Shown here: in pieces, positions 14,845-37,364 of the stretch | Layout of the letters: the number at the start of each line of letters is the position of its first letter | Numbering within the stretch: position 1 is the first letter of the stretch | Assembly (NCBI RefSeq): GCF_035917455.1 | Contig: NZ_CP109078.1 | Span: forward strand, 7,982,001-8,046,000 | Reading direction: 5' to 3' | Length of the DNA stretch: 64,000 nt | From: Micromonospora sp. NBC_01796 | GTDB lineage: Bacteria; Actinomycetota; Actinomycetes; Mycobacteriales; Micromonosporaceae | The notes under the pieces: model-generated | What the model was told of the DNA's origin: nothing | What the model saw: the letters and a program-made list of their open reading frames with translations, nothing else | Database searches by the model: none | Made by a program: the position numbers and the translations under genes

Positions 14845-17811
14845 TCAGACAAGACGCTGAACGCCCGCTGAACATGTCGTACAGTCCGGGTCGGCCCGGT
14901 CCGGCACGCCGAGTACGGCGAACGCGTCGACCGCCGCGCGCCAGGCGGGTACGGCAACGTCGTGTCGCCCCAGCGCGCACTGTGCTCGGGCGGTCCCGTG
15001 CAGGGCGCGGGCCTGCTGGTAACGGTCGTCGACCCGGCGGACGTGCTCGAACTCCCGCAGTGCCGACTCCGGTTCGCCCGTGGCCAGCCGCAGCAGTCCG
15101 AGACCGTGGCGTACCTCCCCGCGCAGGGTCGGGTCGTCCACGACGGCACTGATCGCGAGTGCCTCGTTCAGGAGGTCGTTCGCCTCGACGAACTCTCCCC
15201 GCCCGGTACGGACCAGCCCGAGCCCGCACAGCGCCTCGCCCTCGTACCGCTGGTCGCCGAGGGGGCGGAACCGTTCGATCGCGTCCCGGAAGTGCCCGTC
15301 GGCGGTGTCGAGTTCGCCGAAGTGCCGGCGGACGTGCCCGAGGTTGAGCGTTGCCGCCGCCTGGCCGTAGCGGTAGCCGAGCTTGTCGAACAGGGCCAGC
15401 GCGCGTTCGGTGTGCTGGAGTGCCTGGGCGGCGTCGCCGAGACGAAGGTGGAATCCGCCCAGGGCGTTGTGCGCCACCGCCTCGCCGAACACGTCGTCGA
15501 GGTCCTGGCGCAGCGTGAGGGTCCGCAGGCCGTGCTCGACCGCGTCCCGGTAACGGCCGGCGAGGTAGTGCACGATCGCGATGTTCATCAGCGTCCGGGC
15601 CGCGCCCGCCTGGTCACCGAGCCCGTCGCGCAACACCACTGCCTGCTCGTAGACGGCCAGTGCGGCGGTGTAGCGGCGGGCCGTGTAGTGGGCCGCGCCG
15701 AGGCTGTTGAGCAGGTCGGCCTGGGCAAGGGTGTCACCGGCGAGGCGGGCGGAGGCCAGGCCCGTCTCGTGGGTCGTGGTCAGGTCGTCGACCAGGCCGA
15801 GGGCGAGCCAGTGCCGCCACACGGTGTTCGGCAGCCGCCATGCGTACTCGTGCAGGCCGAGGGCGGCGGCGAACCGGGGAACGGCGCCCAGGACGGGTCG
15901 TTCGACCTCCAGCCAACCGGTGGCGTCGCGTTGGTCGGCGAAGTCACCGCCGGTTTTGTCGTCGCCGGTGTCGGTTTCCAGGAGTGCGACGGCGGCGCTG
16001 GCGCGTGCGAGGTACCAGTCGAGGACCCGTACGGCCGCCTCGCGGCGCTCCTGCCCGGTGGCGAGACCGGCGGCGTAGACCCGCAGCAGGTCGTGCAGCC
16101 GGTAGCGGTCGATCGACGTCTCCTCGACCAGGTGACCGGAGACCAGGATGGCGAGCGGTTCGTCCAGGTTCGGGTCGTCGCCCGCTTTGGCTGCGGCGTG
16201 GACGTCGAAATCGTCGCCCGGCATGGCGCTGAGCCGGCGGAACAGGGTCGCGGCGGCCGGCGGTAGAGCCAGGTATGACCAGGAGAACACCGCCCGGACG
16301 GCGGTGGACGGGTCGTCGGGCGGGGAGAGCAGGTCGATCCGCCGCGCCTCGTCGGTCAACTGCTCGGCCAGTGCCGTCAGGGTGAACCCGGGCCGGCGTA
16401 CGGCACGGTGCGCCACCACCCGCAGCGCGAGCGGCAGGCCGGCGCAGAGGTCGACCAGCCGACCGGCGGCCTGCGGTTCCGCGTCGACCCGCCGGTCGCC
16501 GACGATCCGGCGGAGCAGGGCCAGCCCCTCCTCGGTGGAGAGCGGCACCACGGCGACCGGACGGGCGCCGTCGCGGGCGGCCAGCCCGGCCAGTTCGGCC
16601 CGGCTGGTGACCACGACCAGGCAGCCGGCCGTGCCGGGCAGCAACGGTCGGACCTGTTCGGCCGACCGGGCGTTGTCGAGCAGGAGCAGCATCCGGCGAC
16701 CGGCGAGCAGCGACCTGAACAGGGCCGACCGTTCCGCCTCGCTGTCGGGCACCTGTTGCGGGTGTACGCCGAGGGTGTGGAGGAACCCGGCGAGCACCGT
16801 ACGCGCGTCGACCGGCTTGTCGGGTGCGTGGCCGCGCAGGTCGACGTAGAGCTGGCCGTCGGGGAACCGCTCGGCTACGGAGTGCGCCCAGCGCAGCGCC
16901 AGGGTGGTCTTGCCGACCCCCGGTGGTCCGACCAGCGTGACCAGCACCGGTGCCCCGGTCGCCTCGAGCAGGTCGTCCAGCGCGGCCAGGTAGTGCTCAC
17001 GCGCGACGAGTTCGGCCGGGGCGGCGGGTAGCTGCCGTGGCACCGTCGGCCGCACCACCACGGCCGCGCTGGCGTTCCCGGTTGCCGCGGCGCTGTCGTT
17101 GAGCAGGAGCTGGTGCAGGTGCCTCAGGTCGGCGCCCGGTTCCACGCCCGCCTGTTCCACCAGCAGATCACGCAGGTCCCGGTACGCCTCCAGCGCCTCG
17201 ACCCGCCGCCCGCACCGGTGCAGGGCGAGGATCAGCGCTCCGGTGAGCCGTTCCCGCCCCGGATGTTCGGCGACCGCTGCCGCCAGTTCCGCCATCACGT
17301 CGTGGTGGCGGCCCAGTTCCAGGTCGACGTCGAGCCGGTCCTCCAACGCGGCGAGCCGTTCCTCGGTCAGCGCGACGACCAGGCGGTCCCGCAGCGGGCC
17401 GGTCGCGGTGTCGGCGAGGGCGCCGCCCCGCCACTCGGCGAGCGCGGCGGTGAGCAGCCGCCGCCGGACGGCCACGTCGGCGCTGTCGCGGGCCTCGCGT
17501 ACCAGGGCGCGGAACCGGTGCAGGTCGACGTCCTGCGGGTCGATGTCGAGCCGGTACCCGCCGCCGGAGTGGAGCAGGGTGGTGTCCGGCGTGGTGAACA
17601 GCTTCCGCAGCCGGGACACGTAGACCTGCAGTACGCTCCGCGCGCTCGTCGGGGGTTCGTCCCACAGGGCGTCGACCAGCCGTGCGACCGGCACGGTTCG
17701 TCCCGCCTCGGACGCCAGGACCGCCAGTATGCACCGTAGCTGCGGCCCCGGCACGGCAACGAGCCTGCCCCCGTCGCTCAGCTCGACCGGCCCCAGCATC
17801 GCCACCCGCAC
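14845..17811 (-). CDS. SARP-family regulator with NB-ARC and TPR domains (AfsR-like)
   Basis: A 988-residue activator. Residues 1-95 are the OmpR-type SARP DNA-binding domain (LRCILAVLASEAGRTVPVARLVDALW in broken form), 100-240 the bacterial transcriptional activation domain, about 270-560 an NB-ARC ATPase with Walker A GPPGVGKTT (295-303) and LLLLDNARS, and 650-980 TPR-like repeats. SARPs bind direct repeats upstream of weak -10 boxes and activate antibiotic clusters. The GTG at 17811 has GGAGG four bases before it. It lies downstream of and parallel to FkbH-ACP and MbtH, and the divergent NRPS promoter carries a fitting direct repeat (20395-20426), so it is the probable pathway activator. 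Confidence 0.9.
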   Translation of the reverse strand: MRVAMLGPVELSDGGRLVAVPGPQLRCILAVLASEAGRTVPVARLVDALWDEPPTSARSVLQVYVSRLRKLFTTPDTTLLHSGGGYRLDIDPQDVDLHRFRALVREARDSADVAVRRRLLTAALAEWRGGALADTATGPLRDRLVVALTEERLAALEDRLDVDLELGRHHDVMAELAAAVAEHPGRERLTGALILALHRCGRRVEALEAYRDLRDLLVEQAGVEPGADLRHLHQLLLNDSAAATGNASAAVVVRPTVPRQLPAAPAELVAREHYLAALDDLLEATGAPVLVTLVGPPGVGKTTLALRWAHSVAERFPDGQLYVDLRGHAPDKPVDARTVLAGFLHTLGVHPQQVPDSEAERSALFRSLLAGRRMLLLLDNARSAEQVRPLLPGTAGCLVVVTSRAELAGLAARDGARPVAVVPLSTEEGLALLRRIVGDRRVDAEPQAAGRLVDLCAGLPLALRVVAHRAVRRPGFTLTALAEQLTDEARRIDLLSPPDDPSTAVRAVFSWSYLALPPAAATLFRRLSAMPGDDFDVHAAAKAGDDPNLDEPLAILVSGHLVEETSIDRYRLHDLLRVYAAGLATGQERREAAVRVLDWYLARASAAVALLETDTGDDKTGGDFADQRDATGWLEVERPVLGAVPRFAAALGLHEYAWRLPNTVWRHWLALGLVDDLTTTHETGLASARLAGDTLAQADLLNSLGAAHYTARRYTAALAVYEQAVVLRDGLGDQAGAARTLMNIAIVHYLAGRYRDAVEHGLRTLTLRQDLDDVFGEAVAHNALGGFHLRLGDAAQALQHTERALALFDKLGYRYGQAAATLNLGHVRRHFGELDTADGHFRDAIERFRPLGDQRYEGEALCGLGLVRTGRGEFVEANDLLNEALAISAVVDDPTLRGEVRHGLGLLRLATGEPESALREFEHVRRVDDRYQQARALHGTARAQCALGRHDVAVPAWRAAVDAFAVLGVPDRADPDCTTCSAGVQRLV

Positions 17812-17927
17812 TACGCCTCCCTGATGACTCGCGTGCCCGACGGCATCCGCACCTCAGAATTGTCCATGCTGGAGTCCACCGGCCCGTTCTACCGAACGGC
17901 ACCGACACATCCCAAGGCTCGGGACCG

Positions 17928-20030
17928 CTACTGGGCGTCCTCTTCGGCGAGCAGGAGTTCGATCTCGTCGTCGGAGAGTCGGTCGAGTTCGGCCAGGAGG
18001 TCGGTCAGCTCGGTTTCGTCGGCACCGTCGAGCTGGCGCCGACGGATCTCCCGGGACACCTCGGCGACCGTGAACGCCGGGGTGAACAGCAGGTCGACCG
18101 GCAGCTCGACCGCGAAGACCTCCCGTACCCGGGCCATGAACTGGACCAGTTGCAGGGACTGCCCGCCGAGGGCGAAGAAGTTGTCCTCGGGTGTGGCGGG
18201 CCGGACCGCCAGCAGTTCCGCCCAGATCTGCATCACCCTGGCCTCGATCGGGTCCTCGACACCCGTCGCCGCCGGCCCGCGGTGGCCGGCGAGGACCGCC
18301 GCCCGGACCGCGGACGGGTCGGTGAGGGTGGTGGCGATCCGCTCCACCACCCGCCAGGCTTCACGGTTTGTTGCGGGGGTCGCCCGGTCGGGCTCCACCA
18401 GGGGTGGGCGGTCGGTGGCGTCCGGGGGCCGCGCCGGCTGGTCGGATCCGCCGGGCCGATGGTGTACGCCGGCAGCCGCGCCCGCCGGCAGCAGGTAACC
18501 GATCCGGGTCGACCCGTCGGGTTCCGCCACTGGGGAGGTCCCGTCGTCGGCCGGCTCGGCGGCGATCTCGGCGAGGAAGTCGCGAGCGGGACCGTTGCGG
18601 GCGGTCGGAATGAGCGACAGCTCGACCGTGGTGGCACCCCGGTGCAGGGCCAGCTCGCCGAGGTGGGCGAGCATCCGGTGCTCGACTCCCCGGCCGAGCG
18701 CCCGGCAGCTCAGCAGGAACGTATCGACCCGCAGCAGGTCGCCGTCGAGCGCGTACCGCATCGCGCCGACCAGGCCGTACTCGCCGAACCGGTCCGCCAC
18801 GGTCACCACCAGGCACTCCGGGTCACCGGAGCGCAGGTCGCGCACGTCCAGGCGTACGGGGGCGAGGTTGAACTGGTTGGTCCGGTGGGTGAGTTGGGCG
18901 ACCCGCTCGTGCTGGTCGGGCCGGGCCGGGGTGATGTCGACCCGCAGTGCCAGGTTGGCGTGGAAGTCGGCCAGCGACATGCCGCTCTCGCGCAGTGCCC
19001 GGCGCTGGTTCTCCTGCTCGTAACGCGCGCTCCGCTGGCGGTCCTCGTCGGTCACCCGGTCGGTGTCCAGCGGCCAGCAGTGCCGCAGGAACGCCAGGGC
19101 CCGGCCCGCGTCGGCCGGGACCGTCAGCGCGAGCACCTCCGGGTGGGCGGCGCGGACCTCGGCGACCTCGATCGGGCTGTCGTCGAGGAAGACGAAGCTG
19201 TCCAGACCGAGGTTGAGTTCCTCGGCGAGCGACCGGAGGTTGTCCGACTTGGGCTGCCAGTCGACCCGGCTGGCGGTGAGGTGCTCGGGTCGGAGCACCA
19301 TCTCCGGGTGGCCGGCGAGTACCGCGTCGACGTCGGCGGCGTTGTTGCGGCTGCACAGGCAGAGCAGCCGGCCGGCGTCCCGCTGGTCGACCAGGAGTTG
19401 CTGGAGCGCCCGGCGGTCCCGGTCGACGGTGATGCCACCGATTCCGTCCTCGCCGACGATTCCGGTCCACAGGGTGTTGTCGGCGTCGACCACGACCACC
19501 TTCGGCCGGGGGCTGACGATCGTGTGCACCGTACGGGCCAGCGCGGTTCCCAGTGCGGCGAAGAACTCGGGTGTGTACGGCACCCGCCCGAGCCGGTCGG
19601 CGTAGCCGTCGTGCGCCTCGGTAACCGGGTAGGTGCGGGTCAGGTGGGCCAAGCCGAGCAGGCGCAGGTGGGTGGTGCCGGTGACGCCGTCGCGTACCGC
19701 CCGCTCGGCGGCGTCACTCGTCCTCGGGTCGGTGCCGGGCGGGTCGGGGCAGATGGCGAGCAGCAGCGGGACGGTCGTCTCCCGGTCGGCGGCCCGCAGT
19801 GCGGCCACGAACCCGTCCGGGTCGGCGAGGTCGGTGGGCCGGACCGCGACGACGTTGACCCCGTCGCGGTTGGCCCGCAGTGCACCCTCGGGATCGAGCA
19901 GTTGCTGGAACACCTGACCGTACGGCGCGAAGCTGACCGCCATCGGCAGCGCCAGTTCCCCGGCCCAGAACCGGAGCACCTCGGCCAGCGGTTCGGCGGT
20001 GAACGAGGCGGCGACGCGTACCGTCAGCAC
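17928..20030 (-). CDS. FkbH-like HAD-IIIC protein fused to an acyl carrier domain
   Basis: A 700-residue fusion. HAD motif I is DADNTLW (182-188), with the later CSRNNAADVD and KSDNLRSLAEEL...FLDDSP blocks, then a GNAT-like region containing LTHRTNQFN typical of FkbH proteins. After a Pro/Asp-rich linker (about 515-545) there is a carrier domain with FFALGGQSLQ (S625 carries phosphopantetheine) and a short acidic tail. FkbH proteins capture 1,3-bisphosphoglycerate and place glyceryl, or in BryA-type systems lactyl, on a carrier protein. Here it could supply a hydroxyacyl starter or extender to the NRPS. GTG start at 20030, 7 bp after the MbtH stop: one operon. Confidence 0.88.
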   Translation of the reverse strand: MLTVRVAASFTAEPLAEVLRFWAGELALPMAVSFAPYGQVFQQLLDPEGALRANRDGVNVVAVRPTDLADPDGFVAALRAADRETTVPLLLAICPDPPGTDPRTSDAAERAVRDGVTGTTHLRLLGLAHLTRTYPVTEAHDGYADRLGRVPYTPEFFAALGTALARTVHTIVSPRPKVVVVDADNTLWTGIVGEDGIGGITVDRDRRALQQLLVDQRDAGRLLCLCSRNNAADVDAVLAGHPEMVLRPEHLTASRVDWQPKSDNLRSLAEELNLGLDSFVFLDDSPIEVAEVRAAHPEVLALTVPADAGRALAFLRHCWPLDTDRVTDEDRQRSARYEQENQRRALRESGMSLADFHANLALRVDITPARPDQHERVAQLTHRTNQFNLAPVRLDVRDLRSGDPECLVVTVADRFGEYGLVGAMRYALDGDLLRVDTFLLSCRALGRGVEHRMLAHLGELALHRGATTVELSLIPTARNGPARDFLAEIAAEPADDGTSPVAEPDGSTRIGYLLPAGAAAGVHHRPGGSDQPARPPDATDRPPLVEPDRATPATNREAWRVVERIATTLTDPSAVRAAVLAGHRGPAATGVEDPIEARVMQIWAELLAVRPATPEDNFFALGGQSLQLVQFMARVREVFAVELPVDLLFTPAFTVAEVSREIRRRQLDGADETELTDLLAELDRLSDDEIELLLAEEDAQ

Positions 20031-20037
20031 GCGCGGG

Positions 20038-20253
20038 TCATCCAGAGGTGGCGGCGATCCGGGCGCGCAGCGACGCCGGCCGCATGTCGGTCCAGACCTG
20101 GTCGACGTACTCGAGGCACTCGCGCTTGGTGCCGGCCTTGCCGACCTGGCGCCAGCCGGCCGGCGGCGGGGTGCCGTCGCGCCAGATGGAGTACTGCTCC
20201 TCGTCGTTGATCACCACGACGTAGCTGGTGGTGTCCTCGTCTTCGTCGTACAT
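20038..20253 (-). CDS. MbtH-like NRPS chaperone
   Basis: A 71-residue MbtH-like protein recognised by NDEEQYSIW, PPPAGWRQVG and the end block EYVDQVWTDMRP. MbtH proteins bind and stabilise adenylation domains. The ATG at 20253 follows GGCGGAGC; a longer reading frame adds 15 residues without a ribosome site and was rejected. First gene of the leftward NRPS-cluster operon. Confidence 0.95.
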   Translation of the reverse strand: MYDEDEDTTSYVVVINDEEQYSIWRDGTPPPAGWRQVGKAGTKRECLEYVDQVWTDMRPASLRARIAATSG

Positions 20254-20394
20254 CGCTTGCTCCGCCTCGAATCCAGGGGGTGAACGGGGCATGACCATCG
20301 GTACGGATCGCTGTGGCTGTGCACGTTTTCACTGCGGCCCGATGCCTGTCAAGTGTCTGTCGGCGGGTCGGAAAAACGCCCGAGAGCGAACCCA

Positions 20395-20437
20395 ACTGTT
20401 AGGACAGTGATCTCTACTGTTAGGACTAATTACATAT
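20395..20437 (+). promoter_or_regulatory. SARP-type direct repeats and -10 of NRPS operon
   Basis: ACTGTTAGGAC occurs exactly twice, at 20395-20405 and 20416-20426, 21 bp apart (two helical turns). An AT-rich TACATAT (20431-20437) follows. Direct repeats on one face just upstream of a -10 and no good -35 is the known arrangement of SARP-activated promoters. The first copy also forms ACTGT-TAGG-ACAGT. Confidence 0.65.
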
Positions 20438-20515
20438 CGACGAAGTGCTCGTTACGGTGGGTGCCACGCGGGGGCGGCAGACGACCAGCACCAGGTACGC
20501 AGACGAGAGGGCGCC

Positions 20516-23500
20516 ATGTTGACCCATCCGGTGCGCACCGACACCACGACCGTACCGGCGTTGCTCGATGCCCGTGCGGAGATCGAACCGGACCGGATCG
20601 CCCTGGTTGTCGACCACTCGGGGGAACCGGACGGCGGGCCGGACCGGTTGACTTTCGGGCAGTGGCGGACCCGCGCCAACTCGGTCGGGCACGGGCTGCT
20701 CGCCCGGGGAGTCCGGCGCGGTGACCGGATCGGCCTGCGGTTCGACGGGTCCGACTGGGTGGGCTTCGCGGTCGCGTACGCGGCGGTCACCTCGGTCGGC
20801 GGGGTCGCCGTACCGCTGCCCGAACGCGGTACCCCGGCACAGCTTCGGGACCTGCTCGACCAGTGCGGGGCCAGCGGCCTGATCCAGGGCACCGAGGGCG
20901 ATCCCCGGCCACGGTACGGATGGACGGCCACCCTGGACGAGCTTGACCGGGGTCCGGCGGAACCGGTCGGCGGCCTGGTCGAACCGGCCGACCTCGCCCA
21001 GATCATCTTCACCTCCGGCACCACCGGACGACCGAAGGGAGTGACGGCCAGCCACGCCAACCTGACCTTCGGCCTGCTCCCCCGCCCCCGCCGACGACCG
21101 CTGGCCCACTCGCGACACTTCCTGCACGCGTTCCCGCTGGGCACCAACGCCGCCCAGACGATGCTGCTGCACGCCCTCGCCGCCCAACCGGCGGCGCTGG
21201 TCCTGCCCCGGTTCGAACCGGAACGGTTCGCCGCGCTCGTCGCCGAGTACCGGGTCGGGACGGTGTTCGTCGTGCCGGCGATGGCGATCGAGCTACTCAA
21301 CACCGGCGCCCCGGAACGCCACGACCTGTCCAGTGTGCTGCTGCTCGCCTCGACCGCCGCGCCGCTGCCCGGCGCGGTCGCCCGCGCGCTGTGCGCCGCC
21401 CTGCCCGACGCCACCATCGTCAACAACTACACCTCGACCGAGGCTGCCCCGGCGCACACCACCGTGGTCTTCGACCCGGACCGACCGGCGGCGCTGGGAC
21501 GTCCGGCCGCCGGGGCCGAACTCCTGATCGGCGACCCGGACGGCGTACGCCTACCGCCCGGCACCGTCGGCGAGGTGTACCTCCGCTCGGACACCCTCCC
21601 CCGCGCCTACTACGGCGACGAGGACGCCAGCGCGGCGGTGTTCCGGGACGGGTGGGTACGGATGGGCGACCTCGGCTACCTGGACACCGACGGCTACCTG
21701 CACCTCGTCGACCGGGAGAGCGACGTGGTCAAGTCCGGTGCGTTCAAGGTCTCCACCCCGCACGTCGAGGCGATCCTGCACGAGCACCCGGCGGTCGCCG
21801 ACGCGGCCGTGGTGGGCGTACCGCACCAGACCATGGGGACGATGCTCGCGGCGGCGGTGGTCGCCCGTACCCCGGTGGAACCGGCCGACCTGCGCGTCTG
21901 GCTCGCCGAACGGCTCGCCCCGCACGAGCGGCCGACCCGGCTGCTGCTGGTCGACGCGCTGCCCCGCAACGACGGCGGCAAGCTGCGCAAGACCGAACTT
22001 CGGCAACTGTTCACCGCCGCCGTGGCACCGGAGCACCGGACACCGCCCGCGACACCGACCGAGGTGACCCTCGGTGCGCTCTGGGCCAGGGTGCTGTCGG
22101 CGGCTGAGGTCGGGCGGGACGACGACTTCTTCGCCCTCGGCGGGGACTCGTTGCGGGCCACCCAGCTCGCCACCCTGGCCACCGAGAGCTTCGGGGTGGC
22201 CGTACCGGCGTCGCTGGCCTTCGACCAGCCGGTCCTGAGCGCACAGGCTCGGTGGCTCGCCGACGCCACCCCGGCCGCACCCGCCGAGCCGATCGGTACG
22301 GACACCGTCATGGCGTACGACGAGGTGCCGCTGAGCGCGCAGCAGGAGAACTTCTTCAACTGGATGTACGCCACCGACGAGCCCCGTGACGTCGGCCCGA
22401 TCAGCGTGGCGATCCGGATCCTCGACGACTTCGACCCCGAACTGCTGCGGCGCAGCCTGGACCTGCTGGTACGCCGGCACGAGTCACTGCGTACGGTCTT
22501 CGCCGACGCCGAGGGTAGGGCCGGCAGGGCGGGCGGGCAGCGGGCGTACGTCCGGCCGGACTGCCCGCCGAGGGTGACGGTCGTCGCGGCCGACGGCGCG
22601 GACGCCGAGGCCCGGCGGGCGGACGCCGCCACGATCGTCCGGACCGACCGGGAACACGGCTTCGACCTGACCACCGGTCCCCTGGTCCGGGCGGTGGTGG
22701 TCCGGCTCGACGCCGACGACCACGTGCTCGGCCTGGCCGTGCACCACCTGGTCTTCGACGGCTGGTCGATGGGGGTGCTGCTGCGCGAACTCGGGCTGGT
22801 CTACTCGGCGCTGCGCGCCGGCCGCCCGGTGGTGCTGCCGCCGCTGCCGGTGCCCTACCCGGAGGCGGTCCGGTGGACCCGCGAGCAGTGGCCCCGGACC
22901 CGCGAGTTCTGGTCCGGCCGACTCGACGGGGCGCCGACCGGGGTCGAGCCGTTTCCGGGCCGGCGGCGGGCGGTCCGGCTGCGCAGCGACTCGCTGGAGT
23001 TCCGGCTCGACCGGGAGGCCGCCGACCGGCTGCGCGGGTTCGCCCGCGACCGGGGCGCGAGCACGTTCATGGTGGTCGCGGCGGTCTGGGTGGCGGTGCT
23101 GTCCCGGTTCACCGGCGCACCGGAGATCATGCTGATGTCCCCGGTGCCGGGCAGGACCAGGCCGGAGTTCGAACCACTGCTCGGCTGTCTGGTGCAGTCG
23201 CTGCTGCTGCGGATCGACGCCCGCGCCGACCCGACCTTCGACGAGCTGCTGGACCGGGTACGCGGAACCGCGCTGGACGCGATCGACCACCAGTACTACC
23301 CGTACGCCGAGTTCTATCCCCGGTTCCCGAACTCCGCCTGGCTGCGGTTCGAGAGCTGGGGCGGGGTGACCCACTTTCCGGGGCTGGACTCGGAGCCGTT
23401 CGAGCTGCCGCGTGCGCTGGACGCCGACTGGCCGACCCCGAACGGGGAGCCGGATCTGGGGGTCCCGGAGTTGGCGATGCTCGAACAGCCGGACGGGTCG

Positions 23501-23641
23501 ATCTCCGGCTGGCTGCTCTGGAACTCGTACGCCTTTGATCGGTCCACAATGGAGCGTTTGGCTGAGATGCTGGTCCGGCTGGGCGCGTACGCACCGGACC
23601 GGTCCGGTCGGCGGCTGTCCCAACTGACGGAGGCGATGTGA
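20516..23641 (+). CDS. NRPS loading protein: acyl-ligase-type A, PCP, C
   Basis: A 1041-residue NRPS. Residues 10-500 are an adenylate-forming domain with FTSGTTGRPKG, NNYTSTEA, MGDLGYLDTDGY and GGKLRK, but the A8 region reads ESDVVKSGAFKVS, as in acyl-CoA or acyl-ACP ligases, rather than the amino-acid form QVKIRGYRIE. A carrier domain follows (FFALGGDSL, S545), then a condensation domain (about 600-1035) with HHLVFDG (H743-G749). It probably activates and loads a carboxylic acid that caps the peptide. The stop overlaps the next gene's start by GTGA. First gene of the rightward operon. Confidence 0.88.
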   Translation: MLTHPVRTDTTTVPALLDARAEIEPDRIALVVDHSGEPDGGPDRLTFGQWRTRANSVGHGLLARGVRRGDRIGLRFDGSDWVGFAVAYAAVTSVGGVAVPLPERGTPAQLRDLLDQCGASGLIQGTEGDPRPRYGWTATLDELDRGPAEPVGGLVEPADLAQIIFTSGTTGRPKGVTASHANLTFGLLPRPRRRPLAHSRHFLHAFPLGTNAAQTMLLHALAAQPAALVLPRFEPERFAALVAEYRVGTVFVVPAMAIELLNTGAPERHDLSSVLLLASTAAPLPGAVARALCAALPDATIVNNYTSTEAAPAHTTVVFDPDRPAALGRPAAGAELLIGDPDGVRLPPGTVGEVYLRSDTLPRAYYGDEDASAAVFRDGWVRMGDLGYLDTDGYLHLVDRESDVVKSGAFKVSTPHVEAILHEHPAVADAAVVGVPHQTMGTMLAAAVVARTPVEPADLRVWLAERLAPHERPTRLLLVDALPRNDGGKLRKTELRQLFTAAVAPEHRTPPATPTEVTLGALWARVLSAAEVGRDDDFFALGGDSLRATQLATLATESFGVAVPASLAFDQPVLSAQARWLADATPAAPAEPIGTDTVMAYDEVPLSAQQENFFNWMYATDEPRDVGPISVAIRILDDFDPELLRRSLDLLVRRHESLRTVFADAEGRAGRAGGQRAYVRPDCPPRVTVVAADGADAEARRADAATIVRTDREHGFDLTTGPLVRAVVVRLDADDHVLGLAVHHLVFDGWSMGVLLRELGLVYSALRAGRPVVLPPLPVPYPEAVRWTREQWPRTREFWSGRLDGAPTGVEPFPGRRRAVRLRSDSLEFRLDREAADRLRGFARDRGASTFMVVAAVWVAVLSRFTGAPEIMLMSPVPGRTRPEFEPLLGCLVQSLLLRIDARADPTFDELLDRVRGTALDAIDHQYYPYAEFYPRFPNSAWLRFESWGGVTHFPGLDSEPFELPRALDADWPTPNGEPDLGVPELAMLEQPDGSISGWLLWNSYAFDRSTMERLAEMLVRLGAYAPDRSGRRLSQLTEAM

Positions 23642-26793: not shown

Positions 26794-26852
26794 CGGCCGG
26801 AACGCCGCAGGAACCCACCACCGATCGCACCGTCCAACGAGGAGGCAAAGTC

Positions 26853-29800: not shown

Positions 29801-30338
29801 CGCGTACGTGGTGCCGGAGGCGGCAACCGACGCGGCACAGCTCTGGAGCCTGCTCCAACCCCGGTTGGTGTTGCGGCTGCCGGCGTACCTGATCCCGGCG
29901 ACGCTGGTGGTGCTCGACGCGCTGCCACTGACCCCGAACGGCAAACTCGACCGGGCCGCACTGCCCGCCCCGACGTGGGGCGCGACCGACTCCACCCCGT
30001 ACGTCGCCGCCCGTACGCCGGTCGAGGCGGCGATCGTGGGGATCTGGGAGGAGGTCCTCGGGGTGGAACCGATCGGGGTGGACACCGACTTCTTCGCCCT
30101 CGGCGGGCACTCGCTGCTGGCCGAACGGGTGCTGTCCCGGCTGCGCGCGTACTTCCAGCTCGCGGCGCCGACGCGGGTGCTGTTCGACGCGCCGACCGCC
30201 GCCGGGCTCGCCGCCGCGCTGATCGAGCTGGAACCGGTCCCCGGTCAGGTCACCGCCATCGCCGAGGTACGGGCCGAGATCGAGGCGATGTCACCGGAGG
30301 ACGTGGCGTTGCTGCTCGGCGACGGTGGGGCCGGATGA
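26853..30338 (+). CDS. NRPS module C-A-PCP, glycine predicted
   Basis: A 1161-residue module. GTG at 26853 follows GAGGAGG by seven bases; the open frame upstream overlaps the previous module and was rejected. C domain about 50-480 with HHIAIDG (H196-G202). A domain about 510-1000 with IFTSGSTGRPKG (693 onward), VYGPTETTVW and QQVKIRGFRVELGEIE. Carrier FFALGGHSL (S1087). Hand-aligned pocket residues are D-I-L-Q-L-G-V-V-W-K, close to the known glycine code DILQLGLIWK. A short helix rich in acidic residues ends the protein. The stop overlaps the next start (ATGA). Confidence 0.9.
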   Translation: MPSTADPDAGTSTAPASRTNLESVVALSPQRQALLARRLAQRGLAAVTEPVIARLPRTGPDQLFTCSSGQQRMWLASQFDPSDPSFHVSMSQRFGGRLDVAALRLALTDLVDRHEVLRTVYLGADGAPRQLVRPPEPVPLPEVDLRDLPVADREPQARLLARHAFAEPFDLATGPVLRATLYRLADDDHVLMMTSHHIAIDGWSIGNALRELAALYTWRRSTPESGPGTSPPAGPPLPALPIQYADYAHWQHDSLNEGELADGLEFWRRQLAAPRTDPELPIARRRDQPGDGAGAGTGGKVSLSIGPELLDGLRAAAGATRGTTPFVTLLTALKALLARYLGQSDVTVGTLVAARTHVELEPLIGYFANPLALRTRLDPELTFAEAVARVRRTVIDGFAYQSVPFDLVVQELAPRRDAQRHPFFQAALILHNFSEGSRPDWPGLDVRWWDSELDDMLFDLTLVAVPQPDGGLEATFSYRTEVFDAADVERLAAGFRQLLVGIAADPGQRLGDVALLTPADRQRALVDWQGPIRELPPEASTFPALWARSCARYPEAVAVAAEDGVLSYRELDRRANQLAYRLRAGGVGPETPVGICLDRTSDLLVAVLGVWRAGGAYVPLDPAFPAGRLRMMVDDAAVRVLVTEQGVADRMGELCDAVPELVRLDRDRAELDGLPDDPPAADPHPDQLAYTIFTSGSTGRPKGVEVSHGAVGNLLLSFGESLALTPADRLLAVTTLSFDISVLELLLPLVSGARVVVATNAEVVDGAALLARARSSGATVLQGTPATWRMLLAAGELPTSVRHRLCGGEAFSRDLAERLAGGILWNVYGPTETTVWSAAGVVDPEPSAGSAPVTIGPPIVNTRIYLLDGRGQPVPIGVTGEVHIGGAGVARGYRGRPGLTAQRFLPDPFGSEPGGRLYATGDLARHLPDGRIEFLGRGDQQVKIRGFRVELGEIEVVLREQENVRDAAVAAWTDGGDGDARLVAYVVPEAATDAAQLWSLLQPRLVLRLPAYLIPATLVVLDALPLTPNGKLDRAALPAPTWGATDSTPYVAARTPVEAAIVGIWEEVLGVEPIGVDTDFFALGGHSLLAERVLSRLRAYFQLAAPTRVLFDAPTAAGLAAALIELEPVPGQVTAIAEVRAEIEAMSPEDVALLLGDGGAG

Positions 30339-33300
30339 CCGGGCGGGCAGACGAGCTGCTGGCCGTCCTGCTGGCGCGGCGGGGTTTCGCGTTCACCGCG
30401 AGCCAGTCCATCCGCCCCGGTCCACGGGGACCGGAGTTGCCGCTCTCCCCCGCACAGCAGCGGATCTGGTTCCTCGACCGGCTCGGGGTGGGTGACTCGG
30501 CGTACCTGATGTCGGCCGCGTACCGGGTCGGCGGGGTGCCGGACGTCCCGGCGCTGACGGAGGCGTTGCGCCGGCTGGTCCGGCGGCACGAGCCGCTGCG
30601 TACCGCGTTCGTGGACCGGGACGGGCACGGGGTGCAGGCGATCCGGCCGGCCGACGACCCGGACGTGGTGGTGGCGCTGCCGGTGGTGGACCTCGGTGAC
30701 CTGCCGGAGGAGGCGCGGGAGCGGGGGCTGCTGCGGCTGGCCCGGCACGAGCTGGCCCGCCCGTTCGACCTCGGCCGACCACCGCTGGTCCGGGGCACGT
30801 TGGTCCGGCTGGCGCCCGACGACCATCTCCTGCTGCTGGTCCTCCACCACATCGTCTGCGACGACGTCTCCCTCGACCTGCTCACCGGTGAGCTGGCCGC
30901 CACCTACAACGCGCTGGTCACCGGCCGCGAGCCGGCGCCGGCACCGCTGCCGGTCCAGTTCGCCGACTACGTACGCTGGCTGGCCGACCGTGATCCGGAG
31001 GTGCTGCGGGCGCAGGAGTCGTACTGGCGCGAACACCTCACCGGCGCGCCCGCCCTGCTGGAGTTGCCGACCGACCGGCCCCGTTCGGCACAGGTCGACG
31101 CGCCCGCCGGCAGTGTCCGGTTCACCCTGCCGGCGGAGGTGACCGTGGCCGTCGAGCGGTTGCGCCGGGACACCGACTGCACCCTGTTCACGGTCCTGCT
31201 GGCCGCGTTCACGGTGGTGCTGGCCCGGCAGAGCGGCCAGTCCGACGTGGTGGTCGGCGTACCGGCGGCGAACCGGTCGCTGCCGGAGCTGGAGACGATG
31301 GTCGGGATGTTCGTGAACACCCTGGCCCTGCGGACCGACCTGTCCGGTGACCCGACGCTGCGGGAGGTCCTGGACCGGGTCCGGCGTACCTGCGTCGGCG
31401 GGCTCGGGCACCGCGAGGTCCCGCTCGAACGGGTCACCGAGATCGTCGCCCCGGACCGGAGCGCCGGGCACCATCCGCTGTTCCAGGTGATGTTCGTCCT
31501 CAACTCCGGCGGCGGCGACGCGGCCGGTGGGCTCGCCCTGTCCGGGTTGACCGTCCGGCCGGCCGGGATCGGGAACGGCACCGCCCGGTTCGACCTCACC
31601 CTGGTCGTGGACGCGGGCGGCGACCGGCTGACCGGCCAACTCGACCACAACACCGGCCTGTACGACCGAACCACGGTCGAACGACTGGTCGACCGGCTCG
31701 AGCAGGCCCTGCGGTTGCTGACCACCGCACCCGACCGACGCCTGTCCGAGGTGGACCTGTTCACCGGCGCCGAGCGGCAACTCCTGCTCGGTGGCCTGCA
31801 TCCTTCGCCCCCGCCGCCGGCCCAACCGGGGTTCGCCGACGACCTGGTGGCGGCGCAGGCGTCCCGTACGCCGGACGCCCCGGCCGTGTACGGCGACGGC
31901 GGCTCGGTCACCTACGCCGAACTCGACCGATGGGCCGACCGGATCGCCCGACGGTTGCGGGCGACCGGTGTCGGGCCGGACGTCCCGGTCGGGTTGGTGT
32001 TACCGGCCGGTCCGGCGGGCATCGCCGGGCTGCTCGGCATCCTCCGGGCCGGTGGCGCCTACCTGCCGCTCGACCCGAAGCACCCGCCGGAACGGCTGGT
32101 CGACCTGCTCGCCGACGCCGGTGCCACCGTCCTGCTCACCGCCGGCCCGTACGCGGACACCGTCGCCTCCTTCGCCGGCACGGTGATCCGGGTGGACGAC
32201 ACCACCCCCGCCCCGACCGACGCCCCTCCCCCACCGGCCCGGCGCCCGGAGCAGCTCGCGTACGTCATCTACACCTCGGGCTCGACCGGGCGGCCGAAGG
32301 GCGTGATGGTCACGCACGACACCGTGACCAGGTTCGCGGTGGCGTTCCGGGACGTGCACGGCTTCGGTCCCGGACAGCGGATCCTGATGATCCCCCCGCT
32401 GACCTTCGACGCCTCCGTCGGTGACATCTTCCCGGCGCTGGTCAGCGGCGCGGCCCTGGTTGTCCACCCCGAGCCGGCCGCGCTCACCGGACCGGCCCTG
32501 CTGGACCTCTGCGTCACACAACGGATCACCGCGGTCGACGCTCCCTCGGCACTCTGGCAACGCTGGGTGGACGACCTCTCCGGCCATGAGGTGCCGGCCG
32601 ACCTGCCGTTGACCGTGATGATGGTCGGCGGTGAACGGGTGCCGGCAGACAAGGTCGCCGAGTGGAACCGCCTCACCGGTGGCCGGATCAGATTCTTCAA
32701 CCACTACGGACCGACCGAGGCGACGGTCTGCGCCACCGTCCACGTCGCCGGCCAACCGGGCACCACGGTCGCGGCACCGGACGAGTTGCCGATCGGCCGA
32801 CCGCTGCCGCACGTACGGGCCTACGTGCTGGATCCTGGCGGTCGGCTGCGACCGGTCGGCACTCCCGGTGAGCTGTACCTCGGCGGCGACTGCCTGGCCC
32901 GTGGGTATCTCGGCCGCCCGGAGCTGACCGCACGGGCGTTCGTACCCGACCCGTTCTCCGGCACACCGGGGGCGAGGCTCTACCGCACCGGCGACCTCGC
33001 GAAGGTACGCGCCGACGGTGAGCTGGAGTTCCTCGGCCGGGTGGACCGGCAACTCAAGATCCGGGGTTACCGGATCGAGCCGGCCGAGATCGAATCGGTG
33101 CTCGGCCGGCATCCCCTGGTCGGCGAGACCGTGGTGGTGACCCGTGACCAGCGCCTGGTCGCGTACGTGGTGCCGCGCGCGGGTGCCGCCGTACCGGATC
33201 CCGACGAGTTGCGTACCTTCCTCCGGGGCCGGTTGCCGGACTTCCTGGTGCCGGCCGGGTTCGTGCCGCTGGACCGGTTGCCGCTGACCGCGCACGGCAA

Positions 33301-34807
33301 GGTCGACCACCACCGGCTGCCGGCACCGGATCCCGAATCTGCGCACCCGTTCGTCCCGGCCGGTACGCCGACCCAGGCCCGGCTGGCCCCGCTCTGGGCC
33401 GCCGCGCTGGGCCGGGACCGGGTCGGCGCCCGGGACGGCTTCTTCGACCTCGGTGGGCATTCGCTGCTGGCCGCCCCGCTACTGGCCCGGATCAACCGGG
33501 AGTTCGGCGTCGAGCTGCCGCTACGTACGCTCTTCGACGCCCCGCACCTGGACACCTTCGCCGCCGTCATCGACTCCGCCCTCGCCGTCAGTGGGCGGCC
33601 AGGTCCGGTCGTCACCCCCTCGAAGGCGGACAGGGTCGACCTGTGGGCCGAGGCCGTGCTGCCGGACGACGTCTGCGCCGATCTCGGGCAGCTTCCGCCG
33701 GCCGACCACGATCCGGCGCACGTTCTGCTCACCGGGGCCACCGGGTTCCTCGGGGCGTTCCTCCTCGACGACGTGCTCCGGCACACCACCGCCGAGGTGC
33801 ACTGCCTGGTCCGGGCCGGTTCGGTCGGCGCGGCCATGGTCCGGGTCGAACACAACCTGCGCCGGTACGGACTCTGGCGCCCCGAGTACGCGGCCAGGAT
33901 CGTCCCCGTCCTCGGTGACCTGACGCAACCGCGACTGGGACTGTCCGCACCGGCCTTCGCCGCCCTCGGTGCACAACTCGACGTGATCTACCACAACGGT
34001 GGGGCGGTGCACTTCGTGCATCCGTACCAGCGGTTGAAGGCGGCGAACGTGGGCGGAACGGTCGAGGTGCTGCGGCTGGCCGGGCTGGGTCGGGTGAGCG
34101 CCGTACAGCACGTGTCGACGCTCGGCGTCTACCTCGGCCCGGTGGACGGGTCACGGACGGTCACCGAGGCCGATCCGCCGGACCGGCCGGACGGGTTGTG
34201 GGGCGGTTACAACGAGAGCAAGTGGGTGGCGGACCGGTTGGTGCAGGCGGCTCGGGAGCGGGGGCTGCCGGTGTCGATCCACCGGCCGGCGCGGGTCACC
34301 GGTCACGCCGGCACCGGTGCCGGCAACACCGACGACTACCTCAGCCGCCTGTTGAAGACGTTCGTCCAGGTGGGAGCCGTACCGGCGCTCGATTTCGAGG
34401 AGGATCTGGCGCCGGTCGACTACGTCGCCGCCGCGATCGGGCACCTCTCCCGCCGCACCGGCACCGCCGGCCGCGACTTCCACTTCTACAACCCCCGGAC
34501 CATCGGGTACGCGGAGATCGTCGACGTCCTGCGCGAGCGGGGTTACCCGGTCCGGTCCCTGCCGTACGAGCGCTGGTACGCCGAGGTGGTCGAGGCGGCA
34601 GAACATTCGGCGGAGATCGGCCTCGGCCCGTTCCTGGCGGGGCTGCCGCCGACGATGGGTCCCCGGGAGCACCCGACGTTCGACTGCACCGGCACCGAAC
34701 GGGCGGTGGCGTCGGCCGGGATCCACTGTCCGCCGGCCGATCGCGTACTGCTCGGGCGGTATGTCGACTTCTTCGTCCGTACCGGATTCCTGCCCGGACC
34801 CGGCTGA
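30335..34807 (+). CDS. NRPS terminal module C-A-PCP-R (thioester reductase)
   Basis: A 1490-residue release module. C domain with HHIVCDD (171-177), the usual glycine of HHxxxDG replaced by Asp. A domain with IYTSGSTGRPKG (near 646), HYGPTEATVC and RQLKIRGYRIEPAEIE; pocket residues by hand D-A-G-D-M-G-H-V-C-K, not assigned. Carrier FFDLGGHSL (S1043). The last 360 residues are a reductase domain: NAD(P)H loop TGATGFLG (1133-1140), YNESK (Y1292, K1296) and HNGGAVHFVHPY. Such domains release the peptide as an aldehyde or alcohol. No thioesterase exists in the cluster. Ends 10 bp from a convergent gene. Confidence 0.92.
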   Translation: MTGRADELLAVLLARRGFAFTASQSIRPGPRGPELPLSPAQQRIWFLDRLGVGDSAYLMSAAYRVGGVPDVPALTEALRRLVRRHEPLRTAFVDRDGHGVQAIRPADDPDVVVALPVVDLGDLPEEARERGLLRLARHELARPFDLGRPPLVRGTLVRLAPDDHLLLLVLHHIVCDDVSLDLLTGELAATYNALVTGREPAPAPLPVQFADYVRWLADRDPEVLRAQESYWREHLTGAPALLELPTDRPRSAQVDAPAGSVRFTLPAEVTVAVERLRRDTDCTLFTVLLAAFTVVLARQSGQSDVVVGVPAANRSLPELETMVGMFVNTLALRTDLSGDPTLREVLDRVRRTCVGGLGHREVPLERVTEIVAPDRSAGHHPLFQVMFVLNSGGGDAAGGLALSGLTVRPAGIGNGTARFDLTLVVDAGGDRLTGQLDHNTGLYDRTTVERLVDRLEQALRLLTTAPDRRLSEVDLFTGAERQLLLGGLHPSPPPPAQPGFADDLVAAQASRTPDAPAVYGDGGSVTYAELDRWADRIARRLRATGVGPDVPVGLVLPAGPAGIAGLLGILRAGGAYLPLDPKHPPERLVDLLADAGATVLLTAGPYADTVASFAGTVIRVDDTTPAPTDAPPPPARRPEQLAYVIYTSGSTGRPKGVMVTHDTVTRFAVAFRDVHGFGPGQRILMIPPLTFDASVGDIFPALVSGAALVVHPEPAALTGPALLDLCVTQRITAVDAPSALWQRWVDDLSGHEVPADLPLTVMMVGGERVPADKVAEWNRLTGGRIRFFNHYGPTEATVCATVHVAGQPGTTVAAPDELPIGRPLPHVRAYVLDPGGRLRPVGTPGELYLGGDCLARGYLGRPELTARAFVPDPFSGTPGARLYRTGDLAKVRADGELEFLGRVDRQLKIRGYRIEPAEIESVLGRHPLVGETVVVTRDQRLVAYVVPRAGAAVPDPDELRTFLRGRLPDFLVPAGFVPLDRLPLTAHGKVDHHRLPAPDPESAHPFVPAGTPTQARLAPLWAAALGRDRVGARDGFFDLGGHSLLAAPLLARINREFGVELPLRTLFDAPHLDTFAAVIDSALAVSGRPGPVVTPSKADRVDLWAEAVLPDDVCADLGQLPPADHDPAHVLLTGATGFLGAFLLDDVLRHTTAEVHCLVRAGSVGAAMVRVEHNLRRYGLWRPEYAARIVPVLGDLTQPRLGLSAPAFAALGAQLDVIYHNGGAVHFVHPYQRLKAANVGGTVEVLRLAGLGRVSAVQHVSTLGVYLGPVDGSRTVTEADPPDRPDGLWGGYNESKWVADRLVQAARERGLPVSIHRPARVTGHAGTGAGNTDDYLSRLLKTFVQVGAVPALDFEEDLAPVDYVAAAIGHLSRRTGTAGRDFHFYNPRTIGYAEIVDVLRERGYPVRSLPYERWYAEVVEAAEHSAEIGLGPFLAGLPPTMGPREHPTFDCTGTERAVASAGIHCPPADRVLLGRYVDFFVRTGFLPGPG

Positions 34808-34817
34808 CCGCCTGCGG

Positions 34818-35813
34818 CTAGACCTCGGCGTCGACCGGTTGCTCGAAGGAGATGTGGGCGAAGGCGAAGTCGGTCGCCAGTTCGTCCTGGCGCAACCGCA
34901 GCTCGGTCAGGTCCCGGCCGAGCTGTTCGCGGGCGTACAGCACGGGTTCGTCGTTGCCGAGCCGCTTGAGCTGTTCGCCGATCGCCGCCGCGGCCAGGTC
35001 CTCGGCGAGCTTGCCGGGGTCGACGCCGCAGGAGAAGCCGTGCTGCCAGACCCGGACCCGTTCGAAGAAGAACTGGTCGGCCCGCACCTCGAGCCAGGCC
35101 CAGCCCTCGGCCGGGCCGTCCGCCCAGCTCACGTGCAGGCTCCGGATGATCGGGTCGAAGACCTGGCGGCTCGCGTACGCGTCGACGGCGGCGGATCGGG
35201 CGACGGCGCCGAGGTCGTTGACGTACCCGCTGCGGCCGTCCGGGAGGCGGCCGATGATGTCCCGGTAGGTCTGCGGAGCCGGGTCGGTCGGGTCGCCGTC
35301 GTCCGCTCCGGTGACGTCCCCGAAGGCACGGGCGTCGAGGACGTAGTCGAGGATCCGGCGCCCGTTGCCGCCGTCGCCGAGGGTCGGCGACTCGATCCGC
35401 AGCAGTTGCAGGCCGACCGCGGCGCAGACGGCGTTGGTCATCCGGTCGTCCCGGCTGGCCTCGGGGCCACGGCCGACGCTCGCGCTCAGTTCGACCGCGA
35501 AGGTGGGGGCGACGCTGCGCTGGTCACCGACGACAAACGCGAACTGCGTACGGATCGCGGAGCTCCACTGGTGCGCGGTGATGCCCGGCGGACGACGGCG
35601 GGTGATCTGGCTGAGCTTCCAGTCCGGCTGCACCACGCAGCCGGCCCGCTCGAACGCTTCCCCTCGGGCGACGCGGGCCGCGTACTCGGCCGGGGGGAAG
35701 ATCGGACGCAGCCACAGATCGTCGTCGATGCCGGTGTCTACCATGTATGTCGATCCCAAGTGTCGCAGCCGGGACGCCGTCCACCGCGGATCGGGTGGAC
35801 AGCCGGTAACCAT
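34818..35813 (-). CDS. DUF2726 (PD-(D/E)XK nuclease-like) protein
   Basis: A 331-residue protein. The segment QFAFVVGDQRSVAPTFAVELS followed by DDRMTNAVCAAVGLQLLRIE (about residues 92-148) matches the DUF2726 core, a restriction-endonuclease-like fold; the usual E-x-D appears as E-L-S, so a metal ligand may be missing. The C-terminal half is unassigned. The ATG at 35813 has GAGAGGA eight bases upstream; an alternative ATG at 35744 gives 308 residues. It lies 60 bp behind the MatB-like gene on the same strand, ending 10 bp from the last NRPS gene. No known role in peptide biosynthesis. Confidence 0.7.
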   Translation of the reverse strand: MVTGCPPDPRWTASRLRHLGSTYMVDTGIDDDLWLRPIFPPAEYAARVARGEAFERAGCVVQPDWKLSQITRRRPPGITAHQWSSAIRTQFAFVVGDQRSVAPTFAVELSASVGRGPEASRDDRMTNAVCAAVGLQLLRIESPTLGDGGNGRRILDYVLDARAFGDVTGADDGDPTDPAPQTYRDIIGRLPDGRSGYVNDLGAVARSAAVDAYASRQVFDPIIRSLHVSWADGPAEGWAWLEVRADQFFFERVRVWQHGFSCGVDPGKLAEDLAAAAIGEQLKRLGNDEPVLYAREQLGRDLTELRLRQDELATDFAFAHISFEQPVDAEV

Positions 35814-35873
35814 GCTAGGAATCCTCTCCCGTACGGGCGGCGGCAGGTTCGCAACCCGCCGAAGGGTCCCAGG

Positions 35874-37364
35874 TCAGCCGGCCCCGAGCAGCTTCTTGGC
35901 GACCTTCCCCATGGCGTTGCGGGGCAACTGGTCCACCAGGTGCACCTGACGGGGACGCTTGTGTACGGACAGTTGCCCGGCCACGAAGTCGATGAGCTGC
36001 TGGCCGTCGACCCCGTCCGCCACCACGTACGCGGTGACCTGCTCGCCGAGATCGGCGTGCGGGGTGCCGACAACGGCTGCCTCGGCCACCGCCGGGTGCG
36101 CCAGCAGGGCGTCCTCCACCTCACCGGCGCCGATCCGGTAACCGCCGCTCTTGATCAGGTCGGTGGAGGCCCGCCCGACGATCCGGTGCCACCCGTCCGG
36201 CCCGATCACCGCCACGTCCCCGGTGGCGAACCAGCCACCCTCGCCTACCCCGGCCGTCCCCGCACCGGCCGTCCCCGCACCTGCCGGCACTGCACCTGCC
36301 CGGGACGGCGGAGCACCGTCCGCGCGCAGGTAGCCGTCGAACAGGGTCGGTCCGCTCACCTGGAGTTCGCCGATGGACTCGCCGTCGGGCGGAAGCACCG
36401 CGCCGTTGTCGTCGACGAGCCGGGTCCGTACCCCGGTGACCGGGAGGCCGACCTGACCCGGACGCCGTTCACCGGCCGCCCGGCCACTGACCGTGATCAG
36501 GGTTTCGGTCATCCCGTACCGCTCCAGCGGCGGTTGTCCGGCCAGGGCGGCGAGCCGGTGGAAGACCGGCACCGGCAGGGCCGCGCTGCCGGAGACCAGC
36601 AGCCGGGCCGAGCGCAGCGCCCGAGCAGCACTCTCGTCACCACTGATCCGGGACCAGACCGTCGGTACGCCGAAGTAGAGCGTCCCACCCGCTGCCGCGT
36701 ACGCCTCCGGGGTGGGTCTGCCCGTGTGTACCAGCCGGGAGCCGAGTCGCAGCGGCCCGAGCACCCCGAGCACCAACCCGTGTACGTGGAACAGCGGCAA
36801 CCCGTGCACGAGAGTGTCGTCCGGCGTCCACTGCCAGGCGTCGGCGAGGGCGTCCAGGTCGGCGGCGATCGCGGCACGGCTGATCAGGGCGCCCTTCGGC
36901 GGCCCGGTGGTGCCACTGGTGTAGAGCACCAGCGCGGTCCGTTCCGGCGGGGGCTCGGGATACCGGGTGTTGGACCGGGTGGTCCGGCCGATCGGCAGCA
37001 CCGCCGGACGGGGTGCCCCACCCGGCAGGGCGGATCGTTCGCCGCCGGGCAGGTTGTCAAGCAGGTCGGGCCGTTCGGTGAGGACCAGGTCGGCGCGCGA
37101 GTCGCGGAGCAGGTGGGCGAGTTCGGCCGGGCCGGAGTCCGGCGGGAGCGGCACCACCGGCACGCCGCTGATCAGCCCGGCGAGGACGCCGACGACGGTT
37201 TCGACGGTCGGGGTGGCGTGCACCGCGACCATTCCCGCGCCCCGGATGTCGCCGGCAACCGCCGTCGCCCAGCCGATCAGCTCGTGCCGGGACAGCCCGC
37301 GCCCGGCGACCACCAGCGCGTCGGAGTCGTCGGACGTTTCCGTGAGCAGGGCGTCCAGCAGCAC
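35874..37364 (-). CDS. Malonyl-CoA synthetase-like (MatB-type) acyl-CoA ligase
   Basis: A 496-residue adenylate-forming enzyme. Motifs are LYTSGTTGPPKGALISR, LPLFHVHGL, ERYGMTET, and DLIKSGGYRIGAGEVEDAL; the last block and overall length resemble MatB, which makes malonyl- or methylmalonyl-CoA from the free diacid. A low-complexity Ala/Gly/Pro insertion (about residues 355-375, encoded by a 15-bp tandem repeat near 36250-36280) interrupts the C-terminal part. GTG at 37364 follows GAGGAG by nine bases. No polyketide synthase is nearby, so it may instead activate a carboxylic acid for the AL-PCP protein. Confidence 0.8.
   Translation of the reverse strand: MLLDALLTETSDDSDALVVAGRGLSRHELIGWATAVAGDIRGAGMVAVHATPTVETVVGVLAGLISGVPVVPLPPDSGPAELAHLLRDSRADLVLTERPDLLDNLPGGERSALPGGAPRPAVLPIGRTTRSNTRYPEPPPERTALVLYTSGTTGPPKGALISRAAIAADLDALADAWQWTPDDTLVHGLPLFHVHGLVLGVLGPLRLGSRLVHTGRPTPEAYAAAGGTLYFGVPTVWSRISGDESAARALRSARLLVSGSAALPVPVFHRLAALAGQPPLERYGMTETLITVSGRAAGERRPGQVGLPVTGVRTRLVDDNGAVLPPDGESIGELQVSGPTLFDGYLRADGAPPSRAGAVPAGAGTAGAGTAGVGEGGWFATGDVAVIGPDGWHRIVGRASTDLIKSGGYRIGAGEVEDALLAHPAVAEAAVVGTPHADLGEQVTAYVVADGVDGQQLIDFVAGQLSVHKRPRQVHLVDQLPRNAMGKVAKKLLGAG

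Follow-up and report, generated by a model that had tools for sequence, protein, structure and literature searches.

The window analysed here comprises 64,000 nucleotides (bases 7982001-8046000) of the 8.56-Mb single-contig genome of Micromonospora sp. NBC_01796. It carries a nonribosomal peptide synthetase (NRPS) cluster in which an FkbH domain fused to a peptidyl carrier protein (PCP) is encoded beside a row of four NRPS genes, N1 to N4. Genes were called by GC frame and domains were assigned with Pfam and NCBIfam. We address the question of where the glyceryl unit of FkbH-PCP joins the assembly line, and place its entry, on sequence comparison, probably in the middle of the NRPS row. The genes concerned are given below, with domains abbreviated as AL (acyl ligase), C (condensation), A (adenylation) and R (thioester reductase).

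11719..13059, minus strand: glycosyltransferase (GT), EryCIII-like (PF06722), start probably ~25-35 codons further in
14845..17811, minus strand: large SARP-type regulator with BTAD, NB-ARC and TPR (Pfam)
17928..20030, minus strand: FkbH glyceryltransferase/phosphatase fused to a PCP, with C-terminal docking tail LSDDEIELLLAEE (TIGR01686 and PP-binding)
20038..20298, minus strand: MbtH-like protein (PF03621, E 1.7e-21)
20516..23641, plus strand: N1, AL-PCP-C1, where C1, a surplus C domain, is 22316-23635 (Pfam)
23638..26793, plus strand: N2, C2-A (code DMPHLGLVWK)-PCP, without a C-terminal docking tail (Pfam and alignment)
26853..30338, plus strand: N3, docking N-terminus LSPQRQALLARRLAQRG of the FkbH-partner type, then C3-A (DILQLGVVWK)-PCP-docking tail (start inferred)
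30335..34807, plus strand: N4, docking-like N-terminus, then C4-A (DAGDMGHVCK)-PCP-R (Pfam and TIGR01746)

An earlier note on this DNA had listed a SARP, an FkbH-carrier protein, MbtH, AL-PCP-C, two C-A-PCP modules, C-A-PCP-R, a MatB-like ligase and a DUF2726 protein. Gene calls and Pfam/NCBIfam recover all of them in that order, and Pfam likewise reports neither a thioesterase (TE) nor a transporter for the cluster proteins. The FkbH-linked GT (11719-13059) and the docking pieces lay outside the range of that note or were missed in it. The FkbH domain reaches 281 bits against TIGR01686 (NCBIfam cut-off 147). N1/N2 and N3/N4 overlap by 4 bp each. The N3 start was placed, as the most likely choice, at GTG 26853, 59 bp past the N2 stop, because this codon is preceded by AGGAGG, a likely ribosome-binding site of N3's own. 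A start at 26790, by which all four NRPS genes would overlap, was rejected as the codon there is TTA.

The A-domain codes listed above were read from alignment. The code of N3 is, we assume, the standard one for Gly, and the Gly-like middle module proposed earlier is supported by it; the literature search returned no match for the N4 code. The AL pocket opens with Asn and not Asp in alignment, which would presumably fit an acid without an alpha-amino group. The terminal R domain of N4 (TIGR01746 at 310 bits) is intact, with the NAD(P)H and Tyr/Lys motifs GATGFLG and YNESK, and so agrees with the reductive release that had been predicted.

To compare docking regions, a hidden Markov model was built from five FkbH-partner N-termini of other genera and scored on 71 NRPS N-termini; these are six-frame translations, some including residues before the true start and a few being fragments. 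The 12 FkbH partners and five N3 proteins scored 15.9-107.9 bits, with the window N3 at 19.3, while the best of the other 54 N-termini reached 8.0 bits (window N4 6.1, N2 0.8). All 12 FkbH loci outside the genus that have an adjacent NRPS carry the FkbH-type docking N-terminus ahead of its first C domain. In a 62-row tree of C domains, the five N3 domains fall in a 14-row clade (100/97) together with the first C of FkbH partners (8/8 tested) and one internal C of locus F704; the first C of F682 (too fragmentary), F318, F574 and F581 were left out of this tree. The first module past FkbH in F661 and F668 has exactly the code of N3, DILQLGVVWK, and that of F704 is near-identical (DILQLGMIWK). 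As for the C-termini, FkbH-PCP has an LSDDEI-type tail and N3 ends in a related one, while N2 ends five residues past its PCP with no docking tail. Tails and docking pieces together suit the transfers from FkbH-PCP to N3 and from N3 to N4. Because docking type, C-domain clade and relatives with an identical Gly code all point to N3, and because N2 has no tail, glyceryl probably enters at N3 and would give a (glycosyl)glyceryl-Gly-Y aldehyde or alcohol, Y being the residue added by N4.

Relatives of FkbH-PCP were found in 10 of 394 genomes of the class (E 1e-100) and in 15 of 200 of the family (E 1e-60), the window genome being counted in both. Nineteen FkbH loci were examined, including the window and its congeners; outside these, short loci were covered for G434, G721, G735, G236, G741 and G803. 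All 14 aligned proteins keep the DxD motif, the SCR-L-GRGVEH stretch and the PCP Ser unchanged, and we take the DxD, Cys and His motifs to be catalytic. The predicted structure has a mean pLDDT of 81.6. A GT gene begins no more than 24 bp downstream of the FkbH-PCP stop in 15 of the 19 loci and lies 4.3-4.9 kb away on the same strand in two, namely G662 and the window (4.9 kb, with the SARP in between); it was not found in F508 and F583. In the congener G698, 1 bp separates the FkbH-PCP stop from the first GT codon in the alignment. GT homologues outside the genus are 45-58% identical, and among the short loci one was seen in G434 and G721 and not in G735. No further NRPS domain was detected on the stretches read for F688 and F508, the F753a stretch ends shortly past its GT, and F583 is a different, larger open reading frame. 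As judged from these loci, the FkbH-PCP/GT pair is an independent unit.

The FkbH-PCP/GT clusters outside the family (L125/L126, L127/L128, L131 and similar) have a C-A-PCP NRPS, the A code of which presumably resembles that for Asn. At the end of the G452 NRPS are TE and MFS, and a TauD-like gene lies ahead of FkbH.

C1-type domains occur in 21 of 250 family genomes, three of them in the genus, and 10 of the other 18 were fetched. C1 forms a clade of its own, and the C1 and C2 clades are separate and well supported. Six of the fetched loci (G661, G667, G749, G768, G762 and G693/L193) share AL-PCP-C1 followed by C2-A(DMPHxGLVWK)-PCP, with no further C-A-PCP module on the stretch read (18 kb for G693). 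A separate C domain is present in the first five of these. Two additional ligases, both stand-alone, occur in G661, and the surroundings of AL-PCP-C1 in G667 include a P450, a GT, a GDSL lipase and an esterase. The remaining four are G688, with N1-N4, and G244, G795 and G814, with modules of other codes. By this comparison the N1-N2 pair, too, is an independent unit. Clusters with AL and C2-A but without C1 also exist, for example at 6.76 Mb in the same genome, with a discrete carrier. That small cluster (6.758-6.765 Mb, L088/L089) consists of a stand-alone AL, C-A-PCP, the discrete carrier, a TylF methyltransferase and a GT. The pairing of an AL with a following C domain is seen again in other family genomes. 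The best six of 79 loci were inspected closely.

The catalytic second His, the Asp and the Gly of C1 are invariant in 16/16 aligned domains, while the first His is lost in 3/16. A motif scan had suggested that C1 is dead in some clusters; this was rejected since the alignment keeps the catalytic second His throughout. A PapA-like ester transferase was also discarded: PapA_C scored 21.7 bits against a cut-off of 30. At E 0.05 there was a PapA_C match in 2/16 C1 domains and 0/16 other C domains. Fold search gave ordinary C domains as best matches, with SgcC5 at rank 9. Most ester-forming C domains group with ordinary LCL domains, according to the available part of the malleicyprol paper (PMC12304814). 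By analogy with vioprolide and malleicyprol, C1 perhaps forms an ester with glyceryl, though the acceptor may be a different one, given that C1 also occurs in clusters with no FkbH close by.

In the assembly that we propose, and to which we would give an even chance, two branches meet on the glyceryl carrier and FkbH-PCP is central. FkbH would load glyceryl from 1,3-bisphosphoglycerate onto its own PCP, as expected from family knowledge and from the motifs present. FkbH-PCP would then dock on N3, where C3 makes glyceryl-Gly, as the docking type, C clade and relatives suggest, and N3 would dock on N4, which adds Y. The R domain would release an aldehyde, or an alcohol after further reduction, and the FkbH-linked GT may glycosylate the glyceryl unit or the product. 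In the other branch, AL-PCP and C2-A-PCP would make acyl-X, X being the residue added by N2, and C1 would esterify acyl-X to the glyceryl hydroxyl. The predicted order PCP1 -C2- PCP2 -C1- FkbH-PCP -C3- PCP3 -C4- PCP4 -R accounts for five carriers and four C domains. The core product is most likely a (glycosyl)glyceryl-Gly-Y aldehyde or alcohol with an acyl-X branch. A fully convergent line is a more tentative idea, possible though doubtful: acyl-aminoacyl and glycosylated glyceryl-Gly branches would be made apart, fused by an ester-forming C domain and set free as an aldehyde. The product would be a glycosylated lipodepsipeptide aldehyde, and the genes for its two halves can lie megabases apart.

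The congeners G698 and G662 have every one of N1-N4, MbtH, FkbH-PCP, GT, MatB-like, DUF2726 and APH, with identities of 71-91% (domain or protein). The flanking YaaA and GH95 genes are 85-95% identical in both, and because the flanks are conserved as well, cluster boundaries cannot be set from the genus. No SARP was detected in the 38 kb read for either of them. FkbH-PCP adjoins N1, with MbtH between, in 3/3 genus genomes examined. N1-N4, with unchanged N3 and N4 codes, are also present in Micromonospora echinofusca (L106/L107, a draft in which N1 is divided between two contigs) and G688, where a DUF6875 gene takes the place of FkbH upstream of N1; no MatB homologue of at least 40% identity and no DUF2726 match (E 1e-15) was detected on their stretches. 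In G688, N1-N4 lie at 6.5 Mb, with no FkbH near them, and FkbH-PCP, GT and a SARP lie at 1.33 Mb, 5.2 Mb apart; no other NRPS domain was found in the 36 kb read around the latter. This SARP is 32% identical to that of the window. The G688 FkbH-PCP/GT pair adjoins an MGH1-like gene (mannosylglycerate hydrolase family), a single case that fits glycosyl-glycerate chemistry; no MGH1-like homologue was seen in the other loci examined.

DUF6875 genes adjoin NRPSs with a Gly-Y-R ending in four clusters, and the window has no DUF6875 match:

L106, 17033-18112: DUF6875 gene
L180, 3701-4474: DUF6875 gene
L156, 17190-17861: DUF6875 gene
L158, 16960-17646: DUF6875 gene

Several observations weigh against glyceryl entry at N3 and a role of C1 in ester formation. 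The N1/N2 and N3/N4 genes are coupled in one row, which suits colinear assembly too. In sequence and fold C1 is a general C domain, not separable from amide-forming ones, and its catalytic residues are retained in clusters that have no FkbH close by, some with a single C-A-PCP module. The module after FkbH has the code DLPKVAEVGK, not of Gly type, in F452, F385 and F635, while F752, F753b and F682 open with a C-PCP without A, followed by DFTKxGHVGK. The M. echinofusca draft has no FkbH orthologue, its sole FkbH-domain match being weak (E 7e-18, 32%), and yet N1-N4 are present and N3 has the docking type of FkbH partners; either FkbH is missing from the fragmented assembly, or N3 works without it. 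Finally, the A and PCP domains of the G688 N3 are in different frames (L179, 13.2 kb). This N3 may be broken by a frameshift or misassembled, and the break weakens G688 as support for transfer from FkbH-PCP to N3. The corrected N3 start favours the proposed assembly slightly.

The earlier note had read the NRPS row in gene order and expected a capped X-Gly-Y aldehyde or alcohol. The Gly module and reductive release of that proposal stand, but it equates gene order with assembly order and gives FkbH-PCP no role. Taken in full, AL would load the acyl group, N2-N4 would add X, Gly and Y, and R would release the acyl-X-Gly-Y product, with FkbH-PCP and GT belonging to another pathway and C1 idle or tailoring. 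This agrees with gene order, with the presence of N1-N4 in the M. echinofusca draft, which shows no FkbH orthologue, and in G688, which has none near them, and with C2 as the first C after AL also in clusters without C1. We nevertheless consider it unlikely. Docking type, C-domain phylogeny and the identical Gly code in relatives point from glyceryl to the Gly module, N2 has no tail, N3 has the docking N-terminus and C clade of FkbH partners, the C1 catalytic His is kept in 16/16, and FkbH-PCP adjoins N1 in 3/3 genus genomes examined. If glyceryl does enter at N3, gene order alone would predict the wrong product.

FkbH was also placed between N1 and N2, by carrier and C-domain arithmetic. C1 would then esterify the acyl group onto glyceryl-PCP, and C2, C3 and C4 would add X, Gly and Y to give an acyl-O-glyceryl-X-Gly-Y aldehyde or alcohol. 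AL-PCP-C1 plus FkbH-PCP would be a split form of FAAL-ACP-C-FkbH-T, as outlined in the accessible text of PMC10099666, and carrier and C-domain numbers balance here too. The docking result superseded this placement, which we keep as a rather improbable alternative: N2 has no docking N-terminus (0.8 bits), the FkbH-type docking region and C clade are those of N3, and FkbH-PCP adjoins a module with the same Gly code in two relatives.

Three genes downstream of N4 are treated as neighbours:

34818..35813, minus strand: DUF2726-like protein (weak, 26.9 bits vs cut-off 24.7)
35874..37466, minus strand: malonyl-CoA ligase-like (MatB) protein (3NYQ match, E 1.6e-119)
37652..38683, minus strand: APH(6)-like kinase (above the Pfam cut-off, below NCBIfam cut-offs)

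Among the loci compared, MatB (at least 40% identity) and DUF2726 were met only in the congeners G698 and G662, apart from one short ligase stretch of 41% identity; MatB identity exceeds 80% only in these two, and APH was met only there. From this distribution their cluster membership is putative, and MatB as acyl supplier, DUF2726 and APH were set aside as cluster parts. A GH95-type glycosidase with a lectin-like domain (window 38600-42199) adjoins the cluster and is kept in both congeners.

The same genome has a second R-terminated NRPS at 5.391-5.411 Mb (L156/L157), the last modules of which carry a Gly code and DAGDMGHVCK-R; in their A and R domains these modules share 57-59% identity with N3/N4. 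Ahead of them stands a DALWLGGTFK module joined to the N-terminal domain of a lantibiotic dehydratase. G687 has a cluster with this NRPS layout and these codes, and related terminal modules occur in further family genomes.

If the proposed assembly is true, the NRPS operon is supplied in trans, at its middle, with a glyceryl unit that probably carries a sugar. The cluster would then be a merger of two types that also occur independently, and the tail/dock pair would serve as a predictor in further actinomycete clusters that are still unassigned. A role of glyceryl-Gly-Y aldehydes as protease inhibitors is speculation.

The literature search, mostly without subscription papers, turned up no cluster with the same combination of parts and did not contradict the view that the gene set matches no recognised pathway. 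Foxicin-type use of FkbH was rejected: the consulted portion of PMC5318452 places FkbH in a PKS-NRPS protein with C-FkbH and then PCP-TE, a different layout. Tetrahydroisoquinolines of the naphthyridinomycin/dnacin type, as far as covered by the accessible text of PMC7570522, share the AL-PCP start, C-A-PCP modules, C-A-PCP-RE end, MbtH and a small carbon unit on a separate acyl carrier protein (ACP). This pathway was rejected as well, since genes for the C2 unit (transketolase pair) and the modified aromatic amino acid are not among the Pfam-scanned cluster proteins of the window, distant genome sites not having been searched.

The malleicyprol synthetase BurF likewise ends in a reductase that yields an aldehyde, and its noncanonical C domain links two chains through an ester, but the chains are polyketides, and of FkbH proteins BurF has, by the available part of PMC12304814, no more than a domain resembling their N-terminal extension. 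The aeruginosins suomilide, varlaxin and dysinosin B also start a short linear peptide with glycerate, loaded in suomilide and varlaxin by an FkbH domain (PMC10143770); this domain is inside the NRPS, and the accessible sections describe neither an acyl ligase branch nor a terminal R. FkbH-PCP/GT clusters such as F661, F668 and F452 share the tailed FkbH-PCP, the GT, the docking N-terminus and the C clade with the window, and two of them the identical Gly code. Unlike the window, they have TE-like sequence past the last PCP instead of R (by eye; by Pfam only in F452, with TE and MFS), and no close AL-PCP-C1 was found on their stretches. The first modules of vioprolide and corramycin are FAAL-ACP-C-FkbH-T, and the vioprolide C domain acylates glycerate with formation of an ester, according to the available text of both sources (PMC8949500, PMC10099666). 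There, as here, an acyl ligase-carrier-C unit stands next to an FkbH-loaded carrier, but in the window the two are on separate proteins, FkbH-PCP is tailed and accompanied by a GT, docking points to the Gly module, and an extra C-A-PCP and reductive release are present. Against these systems, the cluster is an unusual combination of known parts.

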